From NCBI RefSeq assembly GCF_014652535.1, contig NZ_BMYZ01000001.1:2170001-2234000 (forward strand): a stretch of 64,000 nt of DNA, given 5' to 3'. Positions 9,671 to 46,628 of this stretch are shown here, one piece after another (positions within the stretch are counted from its first letter, which is position 1; every line of letters begins with the position of its first letter). A program made the translations under genes and the position numbers. The notes beneath the pieces are model-generated. The model saw only the letters and a program-made list of their open reading frames with translations. It ran no database searches and had not been told where the DNA came from. The stretch comes from Cellvibrio zantedeschiae. GTDB taxonomy: Bacteria; Pseudomonadota; Gammaproteobacteria; Pseudomonadales; Cellvibrionaceae.

Positions 9671-12600
9671 CTATTGTCGTGCAAGCCAAGCTCGCGCTGC
9701 TGTTAAAGTGGCAGTTAGTTCGCGCTCTACTGCAGAGAATAAAATATCCAGTTCTTTTATATCTCCACTTTTGATGGCGGATTCAAGTTCTTTGGCCGCA
9801 GCTGCGAAACGGTTTGCACCTAAAGTGCCTATAGAACCCCGCATGGTGTGTAATGAGCGGGCCACTTCTTCCAGATTATGTTGCTGCCTGGCCTGCTGAA
9901 CTTTTTTCATGGAATGACTGGTGTTTTCTACCAATGAGCGAATCAAGCCGATAGTTTTTTCCCTATGTGCAGGATTATTCGCCACCATTGATAATAGTTG
10001 GGTTACATCAAAAATATCTTTAGTGTCGTCTTCGGGAAAAGATTCAACACTTGTAGCCGACGCACGTACCAACCCGGAACTCTCTGGAAGAAAACGATTT
10101 ATGGTAGCTAGCATTTGCTCTACATCAATGGGCTTTGCAATCAAGTCATTCATGCCAGATGAAATGCATTGCTCACGCTCAAATTCTGTAACGCCAGCAG
10201 TCATGGCTAAAACGGGCAAAGTCAATTTCAATTGATCACGCAGCAAACGCGTTGCAGTAAATCCATCCATAATTGGCATTTGAACATCCATTAAAATCAA
10301 ATCATAAGCATGTGGAGACTTACGCAGCAAATTCAACGCCTTCTGCCCGTCATCCGCAATATCAACGCTAGCACCAGCTTGCTCTAGCAAACCTTTGGCG
10401 ACAATTTGATTAAATGAATTATCTTCCACAATTAATAAACGCGCGTTAATACGCGTGGATTTTGCAAGCTTATCCAAACTCGAAGTGGGACTATCCTTAG
10501 AATCTTGCGCCAAGGCTTCACCCAAGGTCTCATACAAACTTGTTGTGGTTACAGGTTTTAAAATATATGCGTCTGGCTGGGTGGATAAATTAGTTTGGAT
10601 GAGTTTGCCGCGCCCATAGGCATTGACCATTACAATAACAGGCAGAGGTTTTGTTGTGCCCTGCTGAATTGCACTTATATTTTTATCATCATCTGTTAAT
10701 AACATTTTCCAGTCGATCAAGACTGCATCATAGACATTGCCAGTGCCGTTTAGGTTATTGATAGATTTCAGCGCTTCTGAAGTTGAAGCAACACTATCGA
10801 CATCGCACCCCAAACTTTTAATTGTTTTACTGATATAGCTGCGACAAGTTTTATTTTCATCGACCACCAGAAGCTTGAGCGATTGCACAGATGGATATGG
10901 AGAATTTTCTTTTTCAGTTTGCACTACAAGTTTGAACGGCAAGGTCACCGAAAATTCGCTACCATTACCATAGCTACTGCGCATATCTATGCTGCCGCCC
11001 ATAAGCTCAACAAAGCGGCGAGAAATTGTTAGCCCTAAGCCAGTACCGCCAAATTTTCGTGTGACTGAAGAATCCGCTTGAGTGAAGGGAGAAAATAAAC
11101 GCTCTTGCTGCGCCAGAGTCATACCTATGCCGGTATCTTTTACACAAAAGCGAACCTTCGCAACGCCCGCATGTTGTTCCAGGCATTCAACCAAAACAGA
11201 AACCTCACCCTGCTCAGTAAATTTAATAGCATTACCAATCAGGTTTACGAGAACTTGTTGCAAGCGATGTGGATCGCCAATCACCACATTTGGAATGCCT
11301 GATTCTACACCGATGATCAGTTCTAAATTTTTATCGCCAGCATTCACACTCATAATGGTTGAAAGTGAATGTAATACATCGTTTATTCGAAACTGTGTTG
11401 GCGACAGTTCCATGCGCCCTGCTTCGATTTTAGAGAAATCCAGAATGTCATTCAAAATACCCAACAATGATTTGCCCGATGAATGAATCATATCCAGATA
11501 TTTTTTCTGGTCACTGGAGAGTGTAGTTCCCGCCAATAGCTGCGCCATGCCCAATACGGCATTCAGCGGTGTGCGGATTTCATGACTCATGTTCGCAACA
11601 AAATCGCTTTTTGCCTGATTGGCCAGCTCAGCTTGTTTCATCGCTGTGCGCAATTCCATTTCATTTTTTTTGCGTTCGCTGATGTCACGCACAATACCTA
11701 CAAACAAATGCCGCCCATCAATTTCCAAAGCATTGACGGCTAACTCCAAATGAAACTGTCTACCGCTTTTATGCAGGCCAGGTAATTCCACGCTTTTACG
11801 TCCAACAACCGTTGGTTTACCGCCCGATAAAAAACGTTTCATTCCTGCATCGTGTGCGGAGCGCATTTCTTCTGGCATTAGGCTTTTAATGTTGGAGCCA
11901 ATCGCCTCCTCAGCAGAGTAACCAAAAATAACCGTCGCAGCGTCGTTAAAGGATTCAATAATACCTTCTTCATTAAGCGTAATTATTCCCTCGCCCACAT
12001 TGTCCATAACAGTTCGAATACGCAGCTCTTTAACCTTTGCATCTCGTTCAGATTGCAATAATTTTGTAGCCAGTGGAATTATTTGTGCGCGTAATAAAAG
12101 TGCCCCGGCACCTGCCAGAAAAAATAATATCGGAATACTCCATTTAAATTGTTCACGAATAGGTGAAAGCAATTCTTCCGTATCTTTTTTAACAACGATA
12201 CCCAACCCTGTTGTTGTTAAAGGACCATAAGCAGCCACTACATTAATATCGCGATAATCCAATCCTTTAAAGGTTCCGTTCTTTCCACGGACCGCAAGAC
12301 TCATTGGAGTTTCTTTGCCATTAATATTGATACGACTAGTTTCATAAACTTCGTGATGAACTCGATCAGGAAAACAAAGGACTTTATCGCCTTTAGGAAT
12401 ACAGATGCGTGTATCACTGGTTTCACCCAAGCCCTCACTTGGCGTCATGTGATTCAAGGGCTCTTCAACTTCCAACCGCCCTACAATATTGTCTTTGTCT
12501 AAAATAGCCATGCTAGCTTTTACGTAAAAGCCCTGGTTCCACAACAATATTGCGGAGACATTGAAACCTAAATCCACGGAAATAGCAGGCTGTTGTGAAA

Positions 12601-13600
12601 AAGCGCCCAAGCGGACCAATTCACGGTTGGTATTGTCGTAAATAACTATGCCTGTAGTTCCGGTGACCAGAACACTTTGCGCAATTATGGTTAATTCATT
12701 GCGAAGCTTTTCGTTATCGGGTTCAGCACCAAGCTCGCGTGTGAGCCGAATGAGGTTGGGACGCCCCGCTGTGCCTATAGCTTTTTCAACAGTTTGGTCC
12801 ACTTCCACATGGAACAATGTACTTTGGTTTTTTATGGCAAAACTCAAGTTTTCGCCCAAGACTCTTTCAAAAGTTGCCTGTTGTGCTGCAAAACCGGATA
12901 TGCCCGCAGTAAGTGAAACAATAATCAGCAAGGCTGTACCAACAAAAACTATTTTGTCTCCATCGGTGAAATATTTTTTTGATCTGTACCAATCTGCAAA
13001 AAACCAGCTATCCCATAAACCTAATGCCAGGAACACCATGCCCGTAGCCGCGTGCGCTGCCATGCGTGTTGCTTTAAAACCGTAAAGCAAATCTAACTGA
13101 AGCAAGTAACCGACTAAACCCGCAAGGCCGATAAATAAAATAGTAAATGTGGCTAGTTGAATAATTAAACCAGTGACACGCTTGCAGACATCGCGCGATA
13201 AAACCAGAACAATACCAGCCAGCAAAAAACCAATGGTTGTGTTCAATGCCATGCGGCCAGGATTGGGATTGTTATCTTTTAACCAGGAATGAAATTTTGG
13301 AAAATCGATTCCCACATTAATCGCGAAGATATTTTCAATAAAACTTAAGGAGGAAATTAAGATTAACAACCAACCAATTGCAACGCGCAACCGCATACCA
13401 TTGGGATAACGGCGTGTTGGAGTTAATAAGGCAAGTCCCGAGATAGTGAAACAGATCGCCGTATTCAAAACCATACCAACGAATTCTGGTTTCATTTGAA
13501 TATAGCTGGGTTGATGGGTGAGCCAACCGAGAATAACGACTGAACCAAGACACAGGATTAAAAGACCTGTCCAAGCTTGCGCGGAGATAATTCGTTTCAT
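9671..13600 (-). CDS. BarA/GacS-like multidomain hybrid histidine kinase with Hpt domain
   Basis: Very large membrane kinase (1309 aa). Residues ~8-240 hold about seven hydrophobic helices, ~240-485 a periplasmic sensor segment, and ~485-506 a last helix. Then PAS (~520-640; GEGIITLNEEGIIESF), HisKA (VANMSHEIRTPLNAVLGM), HATPase_c (NLIGNAIKFT, DTGIGM, GTGLGLTI), a first receiver (VVDENKTCR, acceptor in VLIDWKM, somewhat divergent), a second receiver (IVEDNSFNQ, ILMDVQMPIMDG) and a C-terminal Hpt domain (SLHTMRGSIGTLGA). This is the full phosphorelay His-Asp-His needed to feed an external response regulator, as in BarA-UvrY/GacS-GacA. Whether it is the GacS of this organism is not decidable here, but a candidate CsrB/RsmZ RNA occurs in the same window. 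Confidence 0.92.
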   Translation of the reverse strand: MKRIISAQAWTGLLILCLGSVVILGWLTHQPSYIQMKPEFVGMVLNTAICFTISGLALLTPTRRYPNGMRLRVAIGWLLILISSLSFIENIFAINVGIDFPKFHSWLKDNNPNPGRMALNTTIGFLLAGIVLVLSRDVCKRVTGLIIQLATFTILFIGLAGLVGYLLQLDLLYGFKATRMAAHAATGMVFLALGLWDSWFFADWYRSKKYFTDGDKIVFVGTALLIIVSLTAGISGFAAQQATFERVLGENLSFAIKNQSTLFHVEVDQTVEKAIGTAGRPNLIRLTRELGAEPDNEKLRNELTIIAQSVLVTGTTGIVIYDNTNRELVRLGAFSQQPAISVDLGFNVSAILLWNQGFYVKASMAILDKDNIVGRLEVEEPLNHMTPSEGLGETSDTRICIPKGDKVLCFPDRVHHEVYETSRININGKETPMSLAVRGKNGTFKGLDYRDINVVAAYGPLTTTGLGIVVKKDTEELLSPIREQFKWSIPILFFLAGAGALLLRAQIIPLATKLLQSERDAKVKELRIRTVMDNVGEGIITLNEEGIIESFNDAATVIFGYSAEEAIGSNIKSLMPEEMRSAHDAGMKRFLSGGKPTVVGRKSVELPGLHKSGRQFHLELAVNALEIDGRHLFVGIVRDISERKKNEMELRTAMKQAELANQAKSDFVANMSHEIRTPLNAVLGMAQLLAGTTLSSDQKKYLDMIHSSGKSLLGILNDILDFSKIEAGRMELSPTQFRINDVLHSLSTIMSVNAGDKNLELIIGVESGIPNVVIGDPHRLQQVLVNLIGNAIKFTEQGEVSVLVECLEQHAGVAKVRFCVKDTGIGMTLAQQERLFSPFTQADSSVTRKFGGTGLGLTISRRFVELMGGSIDMRSSYGNGSEFSVTLPFKLVVQTEKENSPYPSVQSLKLLVVDENKTCRSYISKTIKSLGCDVDSVASTSEALKSINNLNGTGNVYDAVLIDWKMLLTDDDKNISAIQQGTTKPLPVIVMVNAYGRGKLIQTNLSTQPDAYILKPVTTTSLYETLGEALAQDSKDSPTSSLDKLAKSTRINARLLIVEDNSFNQIVAKGLLEQAGASVDIADDGQKALNLLRKSPHAYDLILMDVQMPIMDGFTATRLLRDQLKLTLPVLAMTAGVTEFEREQCISSGMNDLIAKPIDVEQMLATINRFLPESSGLVRASATSVESFPEDDTKDIFDVTQLLSMVANNPAHREKTIGLIRSLVENTSHSMKKVQQARQQHNLEEVARSLHTMRGSIGTLGANRFAAAAKELESAIKSGDIKELDILFSAVERELTATLTAARAWLARQ

Positions 13601-44331: not shown

Positions 44332-45411
44332 ATGTTCCCCCCCAATAGATTATTGCAATACACGCCAAAACTTTGCGTGGCCTTCGCCTGGATCTGCTTA
44401 AGCAATTTTTGCTTTGCGCAAGACCCTGCTGCTGAGAGCTCGGCGTCGAGTGCGGCATCCTCGGCTGCGCCTGAAAAGCCTATTTATGCGAATAACGTGG
44501 AGCGGGACAACGCCTTGTTAACCAAAGCCTTTACTGCAATCGCCAAAGCGGACGAACTACAGCCGATAGAAACCCCCGATGAAAAAATCATCACGCTATT
44601 CAAGAACGGAGAGACTCGCCAAACCAAAGGCGCACTTTTGATTATGCACGCACCAGAAGTACCGCAACTATGGCCTGCAACCCTGGAAAATTTACGCCGC
44701 AACCTGCCACTTTATAGCTGGGCGACCATGGCGCTGCCCTTGCCTGCAAAGTACCAAAATACCGTTCCCGAAAGGGAGTCTGCATCTGCCAGTAGCATTG
44801 CAGCGGAAACTGAAAGCTCGGCTGCTAGTAGTTCTGCTCCAGCAGAAGCTATTGCAACAACAAGCTCAGCATCATCTGAACCTGCAAAACCGCTCATTCC
44901 ACGCAATAAGCTGATTAGCGACCGTGTGGAAGCCGCTGTTGCGCAGCTCAATAAGATCGGACAATTTAATTTGGTCGTATTGGTGGACAACAGCAGCGCT
45001 CCCGATGCGCTCGCAACACTTTATAAAAAGATCAATAAAAGCAGCACAACCAACGACACCGTTGACGGGCCCTTACAGGCACTTATTTTGGTGAACTTGC
45101 AAAATCAGGAGCCTCTGACCAAAGAGCAACTTGCAGACATTTTTTCGGTGGGAGATTTGCCCGTGATGGATGTTTTCTTTAATCCAGACAACACCGCCCA
45201 AGCCGAACTCAGGCGCATACATCATGCGGAGGCAATGCGAAAAAATCTCAAAGACTACCAACAATTAATTTTACCCAGCCAACCACCGGTTAGTGTTGAC
45301 GATAAACAAAATTTTTGGCTGGCAAAAATTCATGGTTTTGTGGCGAGAAAAGCTGAGGGGAATGAGCTGCAGGGCGGCAGCAGCAACTCGTCAAACCTAA
45401 CCATGAAATAA
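44332..45411 (+). CDS. DUF3530 family exported protein with serine-rich segments
   Basis: Protein of 359 aa of the DUF3530 type (alpha/beta-hydrolase-like, function unknown). Residues ~1-30 form a signal peptide (LCVAFAWICLSNFCFAQ). Two low-complexity Ser/Ala/Glu segments (~33-50 and ~150-185, e.g. SSASSAASSAAPEK and SSAASSSAPAEA) interrupt the body, as happens with linkers in this organism. The core has GALLIMHAPEVPQLWPATLENLRRNLP (cited in part), YSWATMALPLP, RVEAAVAQLNKIGQFNLVVLVD and LQALILVNLQNQ. No classical GxSxG esterase motif is visible. It is divergent from rpe; a terminator follows on the plus strand at 45457. Confidence 0.75.
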   Translation: MFPPNRLLQYTPKLCVAFAWICLSNFCFAQDPAAESSASSAASSAAPEKPIYANNVERDNALLTKAFTAIAKADELQPIETPDEKIITLFKNGETRQTKGALLIMHAPEVPQLWPATLENLRRNLPLYSWATMALPLPAKYQNTVPERESASASSIAAETESSAASSSAPAEAIATTSSASSEPAKPLIPRNKLISDRVEAAVAQLNKIGQFNLVVLVDNSSAPDALATLYKKINKSSTTNDTVDGPLQALILVNLQNQEPLTKEQLADIFSVGDLPVMDVFFNPDNTAQAELRRIHHAEAMRKNLKDYQQLILPSQPPVSVDDKQNFWLAKIHGFVARKAEGNELQGGSSNSSNLTMK

Positions 45412-45445: not shown

Positions 45446-45485
45446 AAATAAAGAGTGGGGCCTGAGAACATTAACCTCAAGCCCC
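45446..45485 (-). terminator. Rho-independent terminator of the CsrB-like RNA
   Basis: GGGGCCTGAG (45457-45466) pairs with CTCAAGCCCC (45476-45485), one G-U pair on the minus strand, nine-base loop. On the minus strand it is followed by ACTCTTTATTT. The same hairpin lies 45 bp past the DUF3530 stop on the plus strand, but without a clean T-run there. Confidence 0.8.
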
Positions 45486-45780
45486 ATAGATATTTTACGC
45501 ACTCCGCGGAGATCCTTCTAAAGGTACGACCTCCTTATACTTAACGCCGCGCTCTCACGAGCGCCATAATAGCTGTGTCCTTCAGCTTACCTGGCTTCCT
45601 TAGCATGGCTTACTCCAAGCCATCAATCTCCAAAAATTCCTTTTATGCCGCACTCCTGCGCAGCGTCATCCTCATACTGCAACTGAAGGTGGCGTCCTCG
45701 CCACCTCGATATTAGTCGCATCCATTGACCCTTCTTGGTCAACCTCACTTCCCTGAATACCTCCTTGTTGATGTGCATTT
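45446..45780 (-). ncRNA. Candidate CsrB/RsmZ-type sRNA (CsrA sponge)
   Basis: No protein is encoded here. Read on the minus strand, about 14 GGA motifs occur in ~300 nt (AGGAGG, AGGAAG, AAGGACA, TTGGAGT, AGGAGT and similar), in serial short hairpins. Clear ones (plus coordinates): 45688-45705 (7-bp stem, loop AGGA), 45647-45664 (7-bp stem with G-U pairs, loop AGGA), 45605-45623 (7-bp stem, loop GGAGT), 45571-45587 (5-bp stem, loop AAGGACA) and 45549-45564 (6-bp stem, loop GTGA). A terminator closes it. GGA in hairpin loops is the CsrA/RsmA binding signature. The 5' end is not defined; a poor GacA-like site (right half 5 of 6) lies at 45827-45844. Confidence 0.8.
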
Positions 45781-45887
45781 TCAAGTAAACGAGCCCCAGC
45801 GCCTAGTCGCTAAAAGCGCTAAATCGTGTAGGAAATTAACCATAGTGAAACGCGGATATTATCCCCATCAGCGAGGATATCGACGAT

Positions 45888-46628
45888 TTAGGCAGGCATT
45901 TTTAATGCAGCCAAACGCTCATGCAGCTCACCAACAATTGGCGGATAACATCCGCGCGTAGCGAGATAATGCTCATTAAACAATTGGAAATAATCGAGCA
46001 AGCGTTCGCTGTTAGTGTTTTCACCAGCCATTTGCAAACACAAGGCAGCCGCTTCTGCTGTAGACAAATAATCTTCCTGGTGGGATTTGCGCACAGCGTA
46101 TCCACGCAAAGCACCTTGCGGTAATGAAATACAGGGAACCGATTCCAACCAGCGGCTCAAATGAAACATGCGACTACTTTGCTTCCAGGTTGCATCCAAT
46201 AAAATAAAGGTTTTTATTTTATTATTGTCGGGAACCTCAGAAAAAACTTCGCGTGGTTTTGCTTTGGCTTCAGGGGTGTCCGCAGGAAAAACGATAAAGC
46301 ATTGACGGTTCTCGTCTTGCAATAAATCCAAAAGCGCTTGATCAGGTTCGGTACGGCTCCAACAATACGCGTGGGTGCGTGGAAATAAATCAGCAATTAA
46401 GCGCCCGGTGTTTGTCGGTTTAAAAATTTCTATGCGATGCAACAACAAAACAAATTCGACGTGCGATTGCAATTGCGGTTGCCAATCGCAAATACATGCA
46501 TAAGCGGCGAGCTGACATTGCTCGCACCGCACCACCGATTTTCCACGCGCAGAAAAAACTCTCGTGGAATCGGCAATGCAACGCTCACGCAATAATTGGA
46601 ATTGATTTTTAGTTGTTAAATGTTGCAT
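45888..46628 (-). CDS. DTW-domain tRNA-uridine aminocarboxypropyltransferase
   Basis: Protein of 246 aa of the DTW family, whose E. coli member TapT (YfiP) adds the acp group to tRNA uridine. An N-terminal zinc-binding set (CEQCQLAAYACIC) precedes FVLLLHRIEIFKPTNTGRL and the DxTW motif in FILLDATWKQSSRM, with YAVRKSHQEDYLSTAEAAALCLQ (cited in part) toward the C-terminus. Length and layout match. The ATG at 46628 is well placed and the gap to the MATE gene is only 31 bp, so it may be co-transcribed with MATE. The CsrB-like RNA is just downstream in the same direction, though it should have its own promoter. Confidence 0.9.
   Translation of the reverse strand: MQHLTTKNQFQLLRERCIADSTRVFSARGKSVVRCEQCQLAAYACICDWQPQLQSHVEFVLLLHRIEIFKPTNTGRLIADLFPRTHAYCWSRTEPDQALLDLLQDENRQCFIVFPADTPEAKAKPREVFSEVPDNNKIKTFILLDATWKQSSRMFHLSRWLESVPCISLPQGALRGYAVRKSHQEDYLSTAEAAALCLQMAGENTNSERLLDYFQLFNEHYLATRGCYPPIVGELHERLAALKMPA

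Follow-up and report, generated by a model that had tools for sequence, protein, structure and literature searches.

A predicted CsrA-sequestering small RNA of Cellvibrio with a GacA-box-like promoter, and a related branch in IS66-family elements

CsrB and CsrC of E. coli (RF00018 and RF00084) function under control of the Gac/UvrY type, and are free-standing, GGA-rich RNAs with GGA in hairpin loops and a terminator, all features in which the locus described here is like them. The RsmX, RsmY and RsmZ RNAs of Pseudomonas share with it an upstream GacA box and ANGGA motifs, and tandem and multiple copies of these RNAs are known (accessible part of PMC7911923). A further Csr sRNA, Pf1 of Pseudoalteromonas, has a GacA box, many GGA and little identity to CsrB, and its relatives are placed, in the accessible part of that paper, in its own genus only (PMC9927453).

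The locus lies on the minus strand at 45446–45780 of the window, by which we mean the whole 64-kb stretch of DNA analysed. At gathering scores, an Rfam search of the window returned tRNA only and no Csr family. Covariance models of the Csr and Rsm families, a check proposed with the original prediction, gave no gathering-level match on the region alone: the best Csr match was RF00084 CsrC at 22.4 bits (gathering 61, E 9.1e-5), found together with one chance-level human family, and neither RF00195 RsmY nor any other Rsm family matched up to E 10. The positive control, E. coli csrB, scored 380.4 bits against its Rfam model. The Csr gathering threshold was reached in none of 33 related loci (32 places, L034 and L112 overlapping). 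Fifteen of these gave no Csr-clan match at E <= 0.1, and the unrelated sRNA family BjrC68 appeared below threshold at L031 and L029 (28.9 and 26.3 bits, gathering 39). The 18 further loci, from the genome itself, other genera and other families, gave CsrB at the own-genome paralogue L110 (26.2 bits, E 0.002), RsmY at L113 (25.7 and 24.5 bits), and STnc310 and RsaJ, all below threshold. The weak matches to CsrC, CsrB and RsmY, which share a clan, would fit a distant relative, not membership, and we read the locus as one of known kind, Csr/Rsm-like, with an apparently new sequence family that falls by score outside the Rfam Csr families.

Besides its low CsrC score, the locus differs from CsrB and CsrC in a conserved 5′ domain, a GCGACTA promoter element and the presence of five loci in this one genome. 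It differs from RsmX, RsmY and RsmZ in that the window has no Rfam match to them, the weak RsmY matches being found only in one tandem array of another genus. Pf1 comes from another genus and has another sequence, and its action on CsrA has experimental support (in the accessible part of PMC9927453), whereas the RNA here is known from sequence alone. We found no description of Csr sRNAs in Cellvibrio or Saccharophagus in the openly accessible literature; the Teredinibacter genome paper, in its accessible part, reports GacS, GacA and two CsrA and mentions small RNAs in general only (PMC2699552), and the accessible main text of the InvenireSRNA paper does not name Cellvibrio, Teredinibacter or Saccharophagus (PMC5568370). 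On the evidence set out below, we consider the stretch, with a probability of roughly 0.9, to be the gene for a CsrA-sequestering sRNA under Gac control, CsrB/RsmZ-like in its action.

Promoter anatomy and distribution

The features of the locus and its two neighbours, in the direction in which the RNA would be transcribed, are as follows.

45888–46628, minus strand, the same as the RNA: upstream neighbour, DTW-domain protein (TapT-like), Pfam DTW 194 bits
45827–45844, minus strand: GacA-box-like upstream activating sequence, TATGGTTAATTTCCTACA, from alignment A1 and reading in members
45804–45820, minus strand: second conserved promoter element, AGCGCTTTTAGCGACTA, with the core GCGACTA at 45810–45804, at fixed spacing in members
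45777–45782, minus strand: -10-like box GAAAAT, with A-N-A-A-T invariant in all 26 sequences of A1
45450–45770, minus strand: predicted CsrA-sequestering sRNA, ~320 nt with 14 GGA, from GGA count, folding and comparison
45711–45770, minus strand: conserved 5′ domain of the RNA (AAGGAGG, AGGGA, a hairpin, TGGATGCG), from alignments A2 and A3
45742–45725, minus strand: 5′-domain hairpin TTGACC-AAGAAG-GGTCAA, inner four pairs formed in ~96% of alignment cells
45688–45705, minus strand: hairpin with AGGA loop, -12.2 kcal/mol, GGA mean unpaired probability 1.00 in the whole RNA
45647–45664, minus strand: hairpin with AGGA loop, -10.1 kcal/mol, GGA unpaired probability 0.68
45605–45623, minus strand: hairpin with GGA at the edge of a 3-nt loop, -7.5 kcal/mol, unpaired probability 0.76
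45571–45587, minus strand: hairpin with AAGGACA loop, -4.3 kcal/mol (matched by 12 of 200 shuffles), unpaired probability 0.99
45446–45486, minus strand: intrinsic terminator, stem 45485–45457 (12 pairs counted as 45486–45456) and T-rich tail to 45446, -19.1 kcal/mol, from folding and pattern scan
44332–45411, plus strand, convergent: downstream neighbour, DUF3530 protein, Pfam DUF3530 141 bits

A DNA search with 461 nt matched 20 of 57 relatives, the conserved core being the promoter and the 5′ part. From alignment A1, which holds 26 orthologues and paralogues over 140 nt (L021, L022 and L025 were deliberately kept out of both A1 and A2, and L001, L002 and L023 were passed over in a separate step), a sequence-only model of promoter and 5′ domain was built. 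The model matches in all 21 genomes of the genus (18 supplied sequences to it; G002, G011 and G015 did not), and in 78 of 144 genomes and 24 of 32 genera of the family; outside the genus, this amounts to 57 of 123 family genomes and 23 of 31 further genera, none of them contributors. Order-wide, matches were found in 11 of 293 genomes, five of them outside the family with E values of 3e-5 to 3e-4 and mainly in the promoter part; searches over more than 40 genomes ran with stricter filters, so weak matches were lost. The plasmid collection held no match for the window RNA, nor for the insertion sequence-borne RNA described below. Elsewhere in the family, outside the genus, the sRNA gene occurs in close clusters (three copies at L113, two at L118 and two at L116), and the 5′ module is repeated a short way past its first copy in L115, L104, L162, L134, L135 and L176; the model search for clustered copies and repeated modules covered 95 of 188 loci.

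A GacA box had been suggested near 45827–45844, and the box-like sequence is present at precisely those coordinates, with its spacing to GCGACTA and to the -10-like box fixed in relatives. Of the 80 members in which the GCGACTA core could be located, 71 have it 16 nt past the box; from the core to the -10-like box the distance is 22 nt in 67 of 69. The box can be read in 99 of 105 members, with TGTRGTCAATTTCCTACA as the majority sequence among relatives; the conservation of its right half (C, A, C, A at 96–100%) is partly due to selection, because the reading was anchored there, and the left half of the window box is degenerate, a poor match to the palindrome. Counted genome-wide, a loose palindrome pattern was uninformative, with 82 places against 48 for the reversed control. 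At the box position of the distant relative L138, from another family of the order, stands TGTAAGAGATCTCTTACA, a textbook GacA box, and variants of it stand at the same position in L139 (TGTACGAAATGTCTTACA), L140 (TGTAGGATATTTCCTACA) and L141 and L142 (TGTGAGATATGTCTTACA). In these five loci, which belong to two other families of the order, the box is followed by GGA-rich sequence, with up to 32 GGA in 610 nt as counted by eye. Their boxes resemble what we take to be the GacA/UvrY box consensus. They also resemble the box of the Pf1 Csr sRNA, quoted as CGTGAGACATCTCTTACA in the accessible part of PMC9927453, and the GacA box consensus appears as well in the accessible part of PMC7911923.

The predicted RNA start was placed near 45770 because the -10-like box is at 45782–45777; we infer that transcription starts there. 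A consensus scan of the region found no full sigma-70 consensus promoter on the minus strand, an absence that an activator-dependent promoter would explain. The same absence would suit a stretch that lacks its own promoter and is simply a 3′ untranslated tail belonging to the DTW-domain gene, as would its place on the same strand, starting ~110 nt downstream of that gene. The promoter elements, however, are conserved at fixed spacing and recur at unrelated places in the genome (the gap between the PpnN and nucleosidase-like genes, the side of xseB), and we regard such a tail as very unlikely. The seven genomes of the genus in which both were placed (G003, G005, G014, G016, G017, G018 and G020) resemble the window in having the DTW gene a short way upstream of the RNA. 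A protein search of genome contigs, used to check this neighbour, gave only four loci.

The RNA body

The GGA content of the stretch, put at about 14 with many in AGGA by the original prediction, is exactly 14 on the minus strand at 45446–45780, and nine of these are AGGA. It is the GGA-densest 335-nt stretch of the window on both strands: none other reaches 13, the plus-strand maximum is 12, and the means are 3.2 and 3.6. Dinucleotide shuffles of the stretch contain 8.9 +/- 2.2 GGA, with at least 14 in 36 of 2000, and the excess of the stretch taken alone is modest, no more than moderately unusual. Chance GGA richness was therefore judged on the relatives. From each of the 105 members we took a 3′ part of 110 nt lying past the sequence on which locus selection was based; together these contain 606 GGA, against 386 +/- 13.5 in dinucleotide shuffles (maximum of 200: 430), and chance GGA richness was rejected on this result. 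The members are what was left of 119 model matches once 14 lacking the promoter part were set aside, and are not independent because they are related. Per 110 nt, the density is 5.77 in the members' 3′ parts and 1.24 in 1231 same-strand control windows of the same loci.

The four GGA hairpins named earlier fold as described, two with AGGA tetraloops, one with an AAGGACA loop and one with its GGA at the loop edge (45605–45623), and the terminator stem proposed at 45457–45485 with its T-rich tail is borne out by folding (-19.1 kcal/mol) and by the pattern scan. The predicted fold of the whole RNA has five hairpin loops with GGA, closing bases counted, where shuffles that keep the GGA have 2.04 +/- 1.21 and reach five in 3 of 100. 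Exposure is incomplete, since five of the 14 GGA have a mean unpaired probability below 0.4. Terminator-like sites are not rare, shuffles averaging 0.8 in the same pattern scan, and a stricter terminator script found one in 20 of 28 loci, with the window terminator among the eight missed. In those 20 loci the script gives RNA lengths of ~106 nt in L004 and 165–235 nt in the other 19; the window RNA would be ~320 nt long. L004, the orthologue in G020, is predicted to have 3 GGA in its ~106 nt and would be a far smaller sponge than that of the window.

The claim that the stretch holds no ORF was nearly right, but a 53-aa ORF with a TTG start crosses 45623–45784. We consider it extremely unlikely that this ORF encodes a small protein. 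Its frame is open in the window, and in the corresponding frame a stop near the 5′ end occurs in only 17 of 83 relatives, which makes the stop-codon test a weak one; the frame, however, is not kept, as two conserved motifs inside the ORF are spaced 34, 35, 36 or 37 nt apart in 61 of 91 relatives. This variation by 1–2 nt within the conserved domain breaks the frame, and a coding stretch was rejected on this ground. Furthermore, the inferred transcription start falls inside the ORF, and the ATG that overlaps the -10-like box is ATA in L004 and L019.

Paralogues, the 5′ domain and the regulators

Five loci in the genome match, that of the window and the following four.

C1:564727 (L111): in the gap between PpnN (767.8 bits) and a gene resembling a nucleosidase (108 bits, under the cut-off of 124.7)
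C3:158185 (L109): own-genome member
C3:173751 (L112): a short locus, oriented divergently to xseB
C1:2432225 (L110): lies upstream of an ORF recognised by eye as 2-isopropylmalate synthase

For L112 and L110, whose model matches are weak (E 1.4e-4 and 6.8e-6), the case rests on anatomy. The gene beside the L110-homologous locus in G020 scores 894 bits against the 2-isopropylmalate synthase family. Enrichment of GGA in loops is significant for the window RNA and L109, and is not significant in L111, L112 and L110 (27, 40 and 29 of 100 shuffles). As a separate observation, xseB adjoins an sRNA of this kind both in this genome (L112, divergent) and at the order-level match L140 in another family, where xseB was recognised by eye.

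No other part of the RNA is as conserved as the 5′ domain, in the DNA search or in alignment A1. The outer two pairs of its hairpin are formed in only 53% of alignment cells, and changes on both sides of a pair are few (8 cells, against 2.2 in shuffles). Its loop is A-N-G-N-A in most rows, usually without a full GGA within the genus; by eye, a full GGA is commoner outside the genus than inside. This conservation, this loop and L004, which stops soon past the domain with its 3 GGA only, would all suit an RNA that is real and Gac-controlled and does its main job through the 5′ domain (loop ANGNAN), for example by base-pairing or by binding another protein, with CsrA titration secondary. We think this unlikely: several GGA sites lie within the domain, GGA remains dense in the variable 3′ parts, and L112, which is without the domain, and L110, which matches it poorly, nevertheless both keep box, GGA and terminator.

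For a CsrA-sequestering RNA under Gac control, the presumed partners can be found in the genome. Two CsrA genes score above cut-off, one of which differs little, over the 57 residues aligned, from a CsrA homologue of solved structure (103.7 bits). The second, divergent CsrA gene (78 aa, L002:1423–1659) lies between two ORFs without a Pfam match. The best GacA match, at 275.6 bits, is just under the curated cut-off of 280, and the next match has 89.7 bits. A BarA-like kinase in the window, at 9671–13600, had been taken as a sign of the pathway; CsrA, GacA and a GacS-like kinase are indeed present, but this kinase is not the best GacS candidate. The best GacS/BarA match is elsewhere in the genome with 737.9 bits, the cut-off of 890 unreached, and the hybrid histidine kinase of the window comes second with 471 bits to the BarA model, also below 890 and close to a third kinase with 468.6. 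The window kinase was dropped as GacS partner on these scores. Together, the matches give the genome a putatively complete Gac/Csr circuit with several predicted sponge RNAs.

The spacing of the promoter elements, the enrichment of GGA in the 3′ parts, the GGA in loops, the terminator, the paralogues and the presence of CsrA, GacA and a GacS-like kinase support the earlier reading of a CsrB/RsmZ-type sponge, and in combination point to a Gac-controlled, CsrA-sequestering RNA. In the mechanism proposed, phosphorylated GacA would bind the box at 45844–45827 and start transcription near 45770; the resulting RNA of ~320 nt would end at the terminator at 45485–45457 and display many GGA sites, several of them in hairpin loops; and the RNA would bind CsrA dimers and lift the repression by CsrA of its target mRNAs.

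The IS66-borne branch

In same-genus genomes, IS66-family elements carry a GGA-hairpin RNA with a Gac box between the transposase gene and the terminal repeat. Four such elements were read.

L254:1746–3539: terminal sequence at both ends in inverse orientation; IS66 TnpA 46.0 bits, TnpB 116.5, truncated transposase 101 (cut-off 180); RNA between transposase and end
L212:1–2394: IS66 transposase pieces, TnpB, an HTH_Tnp_1 ORF, imperfect ends and the RNA, on a short contig of genome G009, which is marked 7% contaminated
L213:1375–1723: transposase pieces, RNA and one end
L218:3091–4869: transposase pieces, RNA and one end

The copies in G006 are 87–100% identical over the aligned part in seven places, and each starts with GTAAGCGCAGC, the left flank being different in all seven. 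Searched as DNA, the IS-borne RNA matched in 12 of 21 genomes of the genus, with nine places in G006, five in G019 and four in G020; some of the matches are chromosomal homologues outside elements, and the single match in the genome of the window is the chromosomal L110. Alignment A4, of 14 chosen RNAs of the L110/IS66 branch, has both-sided changes in 8 of 24 predicted pairs, seven of them in two hairpins with a GGA loop in most rows. GGA is enriched in loops in four of the five IS-borne RNAs tested, and more weakly in L213 (8 of 100).

The target duplication expected of IS66 is 8 bp. It was not found in the one element examined, which has both ends (GAAAAACC against ATTAGATT); some other copies end at contig breaks. 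Every transposase gene that was read is truncated, split or interrupted by the end of a contig, which leaves these elements as candidates, at most, for present mobility. From these comparisons we think it fairly probable that IS66-family insertion sequences picked up the L110-homologous branch of the RNA and spread copies of it among genomes of the genus. With its putative GacA-box promoter, GGA-hairpin RNA and terminator, each element would then be a transposable CsrA sponge, and each insertion would raise sponge dosage under Gac control.

We found no description of IS66 in connection with CsrA, or of transposon-borne Csr sponges, in the openly accessible literature. The 5′tnpA sRNA of IS200 in Salmonella, like the IS66-borne branch and like that branch only, is a regulatory RNA on an insertion sequence; it derives from the transposase mRNA, whereas the IS66-borne RNA has a GacA-like box of its own, and CsrA is named in the accessible part of the IS200 paper merely as a candidate worth testing (PMC12594629).

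The Rfam models used here miss these predicted sponge RNAs, and the promoter and 5′-domain model finds them in 24 of the 32 genera of the family. Deletion thereby becomes a direct test of Csr control of Cellvibrionaceae traits. Mobile elements would alter the dosage of a global post-transcriptional regulator if the IS66 branch proves functional.
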